Source of the DNA: Branchiostoma floridae
Lineage: Eukaryota; Chordata; Leptocardii; Amphioxiformes; Branchiostomatidae
Direction: 5' to 3'
Length of the DNA stretch: 64,000 bases
Assembly: GCF_000003815.2 (NCBI RefSeq)
Contig: NC_049994.1
Location: 4,406,746 to 4,470,745, forward strand
Below the pieces are notes generated by a model. The model was not told where the DNA came from and ran no database searches. It saw nothing but the letters and a program-made list of their open reading frames with translations. A program made the translations under genes and the position numbers. How positions within the stretch are numbered: the stretch's first letter is position 1; the number at the start of each line of letters is the position of its first letter. Shown piece by piece: positions 59,901-64,000 of the stretch.

Positions 59901-62900
59901 GCAGAGTTCTTTTTAATAAGAAACCCCTGCATATGAAGTGGCTCATTCCAAACAATGTGATGTGTCCTTTTCTTTTCCAGAGGTCTTTGTTTCATGCTAA
60001 TGTATCAGAATATGAAAAGTCCCTGTAGCTCAACTGGTAGCAACATCACAGTTGAGTGTCAGGTTCCAAATTCTTGGTAACTGCGAGATCCCGGTTCAAT
60101 CCTGGGTAGGGCATCTTGGTTGGGGCTGCACCCGTCTTTTGGAAGGGATGTAAATTGGGGATCCATTTGTATACGGTTTAGCAACCCCTCCCTGTAAACA
60201 TATACCGTGTTTTTGAAAAGGTAAGGAAACTTGTTGCCCGTTGTGCGAGTTTGTGTCATATAGACTAGGCAAACTTGAACTTATAAAAACATGATAACGA
60301 AAGATTTATGTTGATAAGTGTTTTCCAACGTTTTACTTTAGGCTTCAATGTTGCTTCCATACTGACACTTTTACGTTATTGCAGGGTGTATCCTAGCCTC
60401 TGTCTTGCTGTGCGTAATTTTGCCCGTGACCACTGTGGAGTTCCAACCAGCAAGGAGTTCTACCTCAGCATTACCGATGTGCCCACCAGACACAAGTAAG
60501 ACCCATGATAGGCTGGTCCTGACTGTCAATCTCAATTAGCTGTTTAACCAATGACAGTATAGCAATTTGCAGGTTGACCAATGAATGAGAGAGTGGCTGC
60601 ATGCTTGTCAAACTATTGCTTTTTATGTTAGTATTTTTATGCAGGGCTATGGGATCAGTCTATTGTTTTCTGTGTTAAATAAACGATCAACCAAAACAAG
60701 TGAAGAAATTTTTCTGGAGTGAGAGACATTCGGTTAAAGTTATGTGTAGAGATAAATGTGAAATTAACTAACAGCTCTTGTCAACTGTCTAATGAAATTA
60801 ACTATTGAGAAAAATTACTTCACAAAAGTTCAAAATGCAATTTTTTTTTACCAAAAATGAAAGCAAGGTCAGTAAGCCATAACATCAAGCCCAAAAATGT
60901 CAATGTATTAACATCAATGTTTTGGTCATTGTTTTGTCCATTAGGGTTCGTGAACTGACCACGGGAAAGGTCGGCACTCTGCTGCGAATCAGCGGTCAGG
61001 TCGTCCGCACACACCCTGTCCATCCCGAGCTGGTCAGCGGGACCTTCATCTGCCTGGACTGTCAATCAGTCATCAAGGATGTGGAGCAACAATTCAAGTA
61101 CACACAGGTGGGAGACCTTTTATAAACACTGGTGGGGTACCATATTAATCTCGAGCTTAACATTTCACCAAAAGTGTTTAAAAGTTAACCATTTCATTGC
61201 AGCAACAATGGTTTAAGAAAGTCAAGCTGTCTTTGATTAGAAAAAAATTTTCTTCCCTTCTAGCCAACCATTTGCCGCAACCCTGTGTGCGCCAACCGCA
61301 GTCGCTTCATGCTGGACGTGAACAAGTCACGCTTTGTGGACTTCCAGAAGGTGCGAATCCAGGAGACCCAGGCTGAGCTGCCACGTGGGAGCATCCCACG
61401 CAGGTGAGGAAGATAAATTTTCTCAAAGTGCTTGGACTTTCCTCAAGTTTGCTACAGTTAAACCCTATGCCTTGTTGCCAGCTTAGGCACAATCTAGACA
61501 CAGTTTTTCCCGACAGTTTTTTTCTCTCGCCGACAGCTTTTTTTCAGCGTCTAGATGGAACTGCAATATTGCCATAAAGATATCGGCAGAATTTCTCCCG
61601 AAAGGTCCGAAGCATTCACCTGATAGCTTAGCAGGTGTCCCCGATAGCTTAGCAGGGGTCCGCGACAACTTCCGCGTGCGTGTAGATGCGTCCCGACTTT
61701 GGGAGGGCTCATTAGGCTATACAGCTGTTTATGACTACAAGCGCCAAGGGTGTCCCGCAGCCAACGTTCCAGATGCCTCCTGACATATCCACAGATATCG
61801 GTAAAAACTGCGTCTAGATTGGGCCTTACCTGCTTCAAGAAGGTTATGTTTTCAGGTGTTTTTGTGAACAGCATAAGTCGAGAAGTCCTGGATGGATCTT
61901 TGATACATCGGTAGGAATTGGCAAAAGGAAGAACCAATTAGATTTTGGGCCCCCTAGCAGCTTTCTATGATACAGTATCAGGGTTCTCCCCAGAATTTTT
62001 TAGTATAGTGGAGGGGCTGGCAAAAATAACCCGCGCTTTCATGAAAATGGGTTCATTTTGCAATGACAGAGGGTGTCAAATACTACAAGTATAATATACT
62101 GTTGTGATTCCTTTGTTGTGAAGTGGCAAAACGACTATTGTTTTGATCATTGCTCATTCACAAGTTTTTGCAGACAATGCTGACTGGAAAAGTGATGCCA
62201 CTTGGCACAAAAATCTGTGAATTGTCATTAATTCTAGCAAAACTAACAAAGAAAATAGGGAAGAAACACACTAAATTTGAAAAATAGTATAGTGGAGCTG
62301 GCTGAGAGTAAAGTGGAGGGCCTCCCTTATTCCACTCTCTGGGGAGAACCCTGGTAATACTGTAGCAGAACTTTTGGTTTTGACGTCTTGTAAGTAGAGA
62401 GAGTGGTGTCAATGTTTTGTTTCATTTGTGTGTCCATACATGTAGTGTGGAGATCATCCTTCGTGCAGAGGCAGTGGAGATGGCTCAGGCAGGAGACAAG
62501 TGTGACTTTACTGGCACTCTCATCGTGGTCCCTGACGTGTCTCAGCTCAACACCCCAGGTATGGATCCTGTCAGGACATAACACAAAATATTTCTTACAA
62601 ATATACATGTAACTATACTCCATGGCATAGTTGGCTATTCTATGTTCCTCTTCCTCAAAAGTCATTTTGATACATGTTTGAGATTCAATTTAGCTTCTAG
62701 TATATATCATAGGCTAAGTAAGAACTCTGTGTATGTTTCCTGTCTCCTTGTGAACTTTAAAGTAATGTAATTACCTTTGAGATTGCCCTGATTTGGGGGG
62801 GCTGAAGGCCCTGGGTGTAAGGGAACTGTCCTATAGTAACTCTGTATTTCCTACTCCAGGTGCCCGTGCTGAGACAGGTACTTGTGTGAAAGCAGGAGCA

Positions 62901-64000
62901 GGGTATGACTCAGAAGGGGTGGGGGGGCTGAAGGCCCTGGGTGTGAGGGAACTGTCATACAGTAACATTGTATTTCCTACTCCAGGTGCCCGTGCTGAGA
63001 CAGGTACTCGTGTGAAGGCAGGAGCTGGGTATGACTCAGAAGGGGTGGGGGGGCTGAAGGCCCTGGGTGTGAGGGAACTGTCATACAGTAACATTGTATT
63101 TCCTACTCCAGGTGCCCGTGCTGAGACAGGTACTCGTGTGAAGGCAGGAGCTGGGTATGACTCAGAAGGGGTGGGGGGGCTGAAGGCCCTGGGTGTGAGG
63201 GAACTGTCATACAGTAACATTGTATTTCCTACTCCAGGTGCCCGTGCTGAGACAGGTACTCGTGTGAAGGCAGGAGCTGGGTATGACTCAGAAGGGGTGG
63301 GGGGGCTGAAGGCCCTGGGTGTGAGGGAACTGTCCTACAGACTCGCCTTCCTCGCCTGCTCAGTGGAAGCTACCAATCCTCAGGTAGGGGGGAATCTTTG
63401 AACTATAACAAATTTGATTGGAAGCATTTGGAAAGAAGTGTGGTAACAATGCAGTCTTTAGTTTTGAATTGCTCCAACTATTGTTATCCATTGCCTATTT
63501 ATTGTGGCCTTTGGGTTTCCCTAAACATTGAGTTAAGTGCCTATAAGTAGTCCAGTGCCTTATAGTGGTCTCTTGGCCTTGCCCTTAATAACTTGTTAAT
63601 GAAAGAAAAGTTAATGTTTTGCATTCCACATTAGACCTAATCAGTGCGAAGTGTTTTTGTTACTGCAATAAAAAAAGATGTTGTTTTTGGTACGTGTGTG
63701 TGTGTCTGTGTTTACGAATATTTGTGTTTTTCCAGTTTGGAGGCCGTGATCTTCGAGGCGATGACCTGACGGCTGAAACCATTAAGAAACAAATGACCGA
63801 ACAGGAGTGGCAGAAGGTTTATGAGATGAGTCGGGACAAGAACCTGTACCAGAACCTCTGTACCAGTCTCTTTCCTACCATCCATGGTTAGTACCAGAAC
63901 CTCTGTACCAGTCTCTTCCCTACCATCCATGGTTAGTACCAGAACCTCTGTACCAGTCTCTTTCCTACCATCCATGGTTAGTACCAGTCTCTTCCCTACC
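56926..64000 (+). CDS. MCM6: DNA replication licensing factor MCM6 (5' part)
   Basis: Exons: 56926-57017, 59748-59891, 60385-60495, 60945-61107, 61264-61403, 62446-62558, then one starting at 63238 (or at an upstream duplicated acceptor as early as 62860) and ending 63383, and 63736-63886; the gene continues past the window. The N-terminus reads [16 protein letters not shown], followed by [10 protein letters not shown]. Exon 4 contains [20 protein letters not shown]. The MCM zinc finger is formed by C152, C155 (C-L-D-C) and C174, C179 (C-R-N-P-V-C). Then [20 protein letters not shown] and [20 protein letters not shown] follow. The Walker A/B ATPase domain lies beyond the window. By family, MCM6 is a subunit of the MCM2-7 replicative helicase in the nucleus. 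The promoter faces that of HSC70 with about 1 kb between them. Confidence 0.95.
58390..59040. repeat. Interspersed repeat nested in MCM6 intron 1
   Basis: The right part includes GCGCTGCAGTACCAAGGGGA, ACCAACACACCAAGTATCAA, AGCCGTTCTTGAGTTAT, a GACAGACAGACA run and finally CCTCCATGAAATTTCATGGA. Fragments of the same family occur at 13560 and 26590. Its middle is lost in the N gap. Confidence 0.6.
58473..58780. other. Assembly gap (308 N)
   Basis: An unresolved stretch inside a repeat in MCM6 intron 1. Its non-round length suggests an estimated size. Confidence 0.98.
60018..60200 (+). repeat. tRNA-derived SINE (MCM6 intron 2)
   Basis: GTCCCTGTAGCTCAACTGGT contains the A box TAGCTCAACTGG; the B box GGTTCAATCCT is at 60093-60103. 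The tail has GGGCATCTTGGTTGGGGCTG and ACCCGTCTTTTGGAAGGGAT. The best preserved SINE copy in the window. Confidence 0.88.
61486..61825. mobile_element. PIF/Harbinger-like MITE, copy 5 (MCM6 intron 5)
   Basis: GGCACAATCTAGACACAGTT at the left is mirrored as AACTGCGTCTAGATTGGGCC at the right. TTA flanks both ends (61483-61485 and 61826-61828). 340 bp. The terminal sequence differs from copies 1-4 beyond the first bases. Confidence 0.75.
61979..62353. mobile_element. hAT-like MITE with TIR CAGGGTTCTCCCCAG (MCM6 intron 5)
   Basis: 375-bp sister of the HSC70-intron copy at 53598. Same perfect 15-bp termini. The flanks lack an exact direct repeat. Confidence 0.78.
62797..63363 (+). repeat. MCM6: 126-bp tandem repeat across the MCM6 exon 7 acceptor
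   Basis: The splice acceptor TTTCCTACTCCAG|GTGCCC is followed by about 85 coding bases, and the block repeats with an exact 126-bp period: acceptor edges at 62860, 62986, 63112 and 63238. A diverged partial copy precedes the first. Units 2-4 are almost identical. Because 126 is 42 codons, the frame stays open through all copies. Confidence 0.92.
63842..64000 (+). repeat. MCM6: 45-bp tandem repeat across the MCM6 exon 8 donor
   Basis: The last 39 exon bases (ACCAGAACCTCTGTACCAGT ... CCATCCATG) plus the donor GTTAGT recur with a 45-bp period, placing identical donors after 63886, 63931 and 63976. Only the first is compatible with the reading frame, since GGT-TAG follows in frame. Confidence 0.9.

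Follow-up and report, generated by a model that had tools for sequence, protein, structure and literature searches.

Minisatellites that span an exon-intron boundary, termed mirages, have been described in amphioxus in the genes for Adh3, troponin C (cited in PMC3902484), globins and PGBD5 (PMC3087553, PMC3902484; this account follows the accessible portions of the papers named here and below). In the globin gene BflGb6, the repeated unit of 150–160 bp comprises the 3' end of an intron and the 5' part of an exon, and is present in six and three units in two haplotypes; the interior of this array is homogenised, with the edges excluded (PMC3087553). BflGb9 carries a duplicated 3' exon boundary, and the Adh3 repeats, as cited in the same paper, have units of 10–72 bp and display somatic instability (PMC3087553). 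The boundary repeats of PGBD5 (60 and 108 bp) differ in number between two assemblies, and an exon predicted inside them is presented, in the accessible portion of that report, as lacking transcript support (PMC3902484). Adh3 data and globin RT-PCR suggest that regular splicing is undisturbed at mirages; it has also been considered that the copies could serve as cryptic sites, and mirages have been proposed as a source of introns (PMC3087553). The arrays described below are located in the DNA-replication gene MCM6 of Branchiostoma floridae, within a window of 64,000 nucleotides (C16:4406746-4470745; the whole stretch of DNA that was analysed) and its immediate flank.

The MCM6 gene and the array before exon 7

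MCM6 lies on the plus strand, with a start ATG at 56926, and matches to it reach approximately position 73438, outside the window. Exons 1–15 were modelled with GT-AG borders, flanking sequence being included, whereas exons 16–17, which also match human MCM6, lie outside the joined model. The exons flanking the array, read together, match human MCM6 residues 225–360 (E = 9.6e-65). Exon 6 (62446–62558; plus strand; match to human MCM6 223–261) ends at the donor CAG/GTATGG, the complete exon 7 (63238–63383; plus strand; 146 nt) at CAG/GTAGGG, and exon 8 (63736–63886; plus strand; 151 nt) at ATG/GTTAGT; the latter two were also placed by their match to human MCM6, and the borders of all three were modelled. 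The exon called exon 7 in the first-pass annotation is indeed the seventh of this model. Lengths of 108–163 nt were measured for 13 other internal exons, and the shortest of the 14 measured introns has 156 nt.

A second MCM6 copy was considered and rejected, as all six protein matches in the genome (137-residue query, 12 candidates scored) fall in this gene; a DNA query likewise gave a single match in the assembly (513,431,437 bases, 431 contigs). Intron 1 contains a run of 308 N (58473–58780), and its sequence is therefore incomplete; two more N runs, of 100 each, are present at 6344–6443 and 43510–43609. Also present in the window, all on the minus strand, are HSP70 exons (50757–54410), an ORF of 328 codons with a TMEM169 match (4148–5131), and a segment that matches Mos1 transposase in its HTH domain (1364–1681), probably a mariner-like remnant.

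The array detected by TRF before and into exon 7 occupies positions 62794–63340 (period 126, 4.3 copies, 97% matches, 0% indels; 4.34 units in size), and its end thus falls within the exon, which extends to 63383. The motif TTTCCTACTCCAG ends at 62859, 62985, 63111 and 63237, i.e. at four complete 3' splice sites with a spacing of 126 bp, in agreement with the four acceptor copies reported by the first-pass annotation. Each unit spans the exon-intron boundary, being composed of a 23-nt intron tail (with TAAC, which might serve as the branch point, followed by a pyrimidine tract and CAG) and 103 nt from the start of exon 7. The complete acceptor previously ascribed to each unit was therefore found, but its exon portion corresponds to approximately 34 codons and not to the "about 28" given earlier.

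In order along the plus strand, as delimited by unit comparison (with matrix scores for the acceptors), the array consists of a leftmost partial unit of 43 bp (62794–62836; also from TRF), which is an exon 7 fragment within intron 6 that lacks a preceding acceptor; an intron tail with acceptor 1 (62837–62859; 10.48 bits) and a 103-nt partial exon 7 copy 1 (62860–62962); an intron tail with acceptor 2 (62963–62985; 10.88 bits) and partial copy 2 (62986–63088); an intron tail with acceptor 3 (63089–63111; 10.88 bits) and partial copy 3 (63112–63214); and an intron tail with acceptor 4 (63215–63237; 10.88 bits), presumably the one in use, directly before the complete exon. The reading frame is open from acceptor 1 through the exon end at 63383. 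Joined via acceptor 4, exons 1–15 give 2,011 nt (670 codons) with no stop codons, and the count remains zero with each of the four acceptors, which confirms that the 42-codon unit is stop-free in every copy. Apart from the array, the gene is intact over these modelled exons. The array ORF was matched by Pfam to Lamprin and DUF4692, but these hits fall under the family cut-offs and were discarded as composition effects.

No differences were found among the three units that begin at 62920, 63046 and 63172 (126 of 126 positions identical), and the 5' unit (62794) differs from them at 8 of 126; the interior is thus homogenised and the diverged edge unit excluded. The acceptor-spanning minisatellite is real and, judging from the identical units, recent, as had already been proposed from the near-identity of units 2–4. 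Exon 7 copy 1 is distinguished from the later copies by one Arg-to-Cys and two synonymous differences. A C-to-A change near the unit junction, present in the three identical units and absent from both the leftmost fragment and the complete exon, seems to fit the amplification of one internal unit, and the 43-bp fragment may be a fifth unit cut short by deletion. The array would have originated in a tandem duplication of a segment with 23 nt from the 3' end of intron 6 and 103 nt from the 5' end of exon 7, and would have expanded via slippage or unequal exchange, a process that would have homogenised the internal units while the 5' edge unit stayed diverged.

The identity of three units is also what might be seen if a shorter array had been misassembled and its unit number inflated, and the BflGb6 mirage was mis-assembled in one genome draft (PMC3087553). 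However, the eight differences in the edge unit and the mixed unit order of a second array (see below) are unlike simple stutter, and the PGBD5 repeats were reportedly supported by re-sequencing (PMC3902484). We consider such an artefact highly improbable; the precise number of units in the assembled array may be wrong.

Choice of acceptor and the second array

The acceptors were scored using a matrix built from the 14 other MCM6 acceptors, which themselves reach -5.7 to 10.8 bits in leave-one-out scoring, so that those of the array are among the best of the gene. Because all four score alike, the last acceptor is not favoured by local sequence, and distance speaks against it, since acceptor 1 lies nearest to the exon 6 donor and would be preferred on that ground. 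Nor would a stop codon penalise splicing to one of the upstream acceptors, as all four versions read through without interruption. With acceptors 4, 3, 2 and 1, exon 7 would measure 146, 272, 398 and 524 nt, respectively, and only acceptor 4 yields an exon whose length falls among those of the other 13 (108–163 nt). The exon 7 donor is thus likeliest to be paired with the last acceptor, at 63237, as the only one giving an exon of the usual size.

If the upstream acceptors were used in a notable share of transcripts, one to three additional 42-residue modules would be placed in the N-terminal domain, after the position of human Gly261. The similar scores of the four acceptors, the TAAC upstream of each as a possible branch point, and a stop-free unit whose length is a multiple of 3 are all compatible with such inclusion, but the exon would then have 272–524 nt as opposed to 108–163 nt in the 13 others, and copy 1 carries the Arg-to-Cys change. 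Moreover, this stretch varies by at most four residues among the five alignments listed of solved MCM6 sequences, in which 42–126 extra residues would therefore be without parallel. Taking into account also the frequency with which random duplications are in frame and open (see below), we judge the inclusion of modules to be unlikely.

The units might instead be removed stepwise, as 126-nt introns gained by duplication, with each CAG/GT serving first as an acceptor and then as a donor, and with a normal protein as the outcome. AGGT is indeed present at both ends of the duplicated unit, and CAG/GTGCCC is in phase at all four acceptors (62859, 62985, 63111, 63237). Precedents are provided by the dual-specific AGGT sites of UBC repeats (PMC10809524), the intron gain in potato RdRp, where an intron end and an exon start were duplicated (PMC4974935), and the proposed role of mirages in generating introns (PMC3087553). 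The in-phase donors are, however, weak (CAG/GTGCCC, 3.2 bits; CAG/GTACTC, 3.9 bits), even if the weakest real donors are no better (the 15 modelled MCM6 donors score 2.96–11.7 bits leave-one-out). In addition, the cryptic donors of the unit with higher scores do not keep the phase (GGG/GTGGGG, 7.7 bits; GGT/GTGAGG, 4.1 bits), and 126 nt is less than the 156 nt of the shortest MCM6 intron (n=14). Stepwise removal therefore appears very unlikely.

A second array, with a 45-bp unit (one unit has 31 bp), was identified over the exon 8 donor by TRF and with the use of flanking sequence; it occupies 63846–64000 on the plus strand and continues to approximately 64194 (L002 1846–2194). It contains eight identical donors, CATG/GTTAGT, from 63886 to 64187 (three of the eight within the window), and its unit order is mixed. 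Immediately past the first exon 8 donor there is a TAG in frame, and each donor except the first brings a stop. If a later donor were used, the protein would stop there, and because of this TAG the second array is not a coding device, although its construction resembles that of the first. It is the donor-spanning sister of the acceptor array, in the adjacent exon of the same gene. The second array also supports use of the last acceptor before exon 7, because there a full-length product depends on the donor closest to the rest of its exon.

Taken with the published amphioxus mirages, this second MCM6 array appears to point to a minisatellite that is neutral for splicing. We regard it as likely that the acceptor array is a mirage in which the last acceptor is used, the upstream copies are intronic and the MCM6 protein is unchanged. 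The spliceosome would in this case pair the acceptor at 63237 with the exon 7 donor to define the 146-nt exon, and the upstream copies would be removed within an intron of 679 nt, leaving an ordinary protein. The three outcomes listed in the first-pass annotation include this one solely as the "0 extra" end of a range. We find it unlikely that the locus is a living intermediate, either of intron gain or of length variation in the protein of a core helicase subunit, in which animals vary in unit number and zero to three 42-residue modules, or the stepwise removal of 126 nt, occur normally.

Density of arrays and chance expectation

Arrays with a period of at least 20 account for 15,127 of the 289,955 bp around MCM6 (5.2%; 55 arrays after merging). 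Two of the 30 MCM6 boundaries are situated in arrays, compared with a mean of 1.57 expected (P(>=2) = 0.385) when the exon map was slid along the same 290 kb, which contain 4,044 N, with the MCM6 arrays kept in, a period of at least 20 and an entropy filter. Given that arrays occupy 5.2% of this region, the observed number is unsurprising, and this comparison does not support special targeting of exon edges. Array formation would thus be a region-wide process that probably reaches exon edges at roughly the rate expected from random placement, and the MCM6 array would be one of its products and not a device. Elsewhere in the window, the minisatellites at 10262–11235 (132-bp period) and 19103–19504 (237-bp period) are seemingly related and lie on opposite strands; words such as CTTTCAGTACCAAGG and a near reverse complement were recognised by eye as shared between them.

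As evidence, the open 42-codon frame noted in the first-pass annotation counts for little. Among acceptor duplications simulated for the 13 other MCM6 exons, each comprising 15–60 nt of intron tail and at least 30 nt of exon start, 15,377 of 63,618 (24%) were equally in frame and open; when the observed 23+103 geometry was applied to the 13 other acceptors, 11 were open. Since nearly a quarter of the simulated duplications behave alike, an open 126-nt unit is weak evidence for protein modules, and the deduction of coding modules from the open frame was rejected on the same counts.

When the 55 merged arrays were scanned mechanically for an exon-like reading at a splice site, with splice matrices that included the MCM6 array sites, seven array-strand pairs were returned: the two MCM6 arrays, a donor array in an ATF2-like gene, and four that were not counted (18536, 74442, 105897, 178235). 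The ATF2-like case is an array of 62 bp x 2 over a donor-like site on the minus strand (L012 7919–8045), the unit of which is not a multiple of 3. The ORF downstream of it encodes a bZIP domain (Pfam bZIP_1), the closest PDB entry being ATF-2 (E = 1.7e-20). A Pfam search of the exon at this array gave no match; we take this exon to resemble ATF2. It is therefore probable that a third boundary array exists near MCM6, on the opposite strand. Another MCM locus (L031, 9,001 bp) contains two small arrays with a 21-bp period.

Comparison with known systems

Mirages are natural experiments in splice-site choice, and MCM6 combines, within one gene, four like-scoring acceptors in front of exon 7 with eight donors of the same sequence that follow exon 8. 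Its arrays are thus suited to asking if splice sites are chosen by position only, and if arrays of this kind contribute to the gain of introns. Should the extra sites be silent, nothing more than a commonplace minisatellite would be involved, and the lesson would be one of caution for annotators: automated gene prediction may report an exon of 524 nt, or spurious exons, much as in the PGBD5 repeats. Searches of the open-licence PMC literature found no report of an array of this type in MCM6, which is weak evidence of absence.

Three described systems share features with the MCM6 arrays. The polyubiquitin gene UBC likewise carries in-frame repeats with AGGT at each unit boundary (PMC10809524). 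However, each UBC unit encodes a whole protein monomer and lies inside an exon, whereas the MCM6 unit, a partial exon with an intron tail, is not a complete coding module between AGGT sites, and use of its donors is hypothetical. Closer in composition are the segments involved in intron gain by tandem duplication (ATP2A1, potato RdRp), which, as described in PMC4974935, contain AGGT, a branch point, a pyrimidine tract and an acceptor, as in MCM6; the potato RdRp unit is also built from an intron end and an exon start (PMC4974935). MCM6 differs in that its in-phase donors are weak and the splicing-out of its unit is hypothetical.

The third system comprises the amphioxus mirages. For some of these, copy-number variation and RT-PCR results have been reported, whereas the MCM6 arrays are known from one assembly. 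MCM6 is a gene new to this group, and is distinguished from the mirages described in the accessible portions of the published accounts by the presence of acceptor and donor arrays in neighbouring exons, and by an acceptor unit (126 nt) that is in frame and open. In other respects the resemblance is close: in both cases tandem repeats span the boundary, on the acceptor or the donor side, with AG/GT in the copies (PMC3087553, PMC3902484). The nearest counterpart of the acceptor array is the BflGb6 mirage, which also joins the 3' end of an intron to the 5' part of an exon and has an identical interior and a diverged edge (PMC3087553). The MCM6 arrays thus add to a class of repeats that was known from lancelets before.
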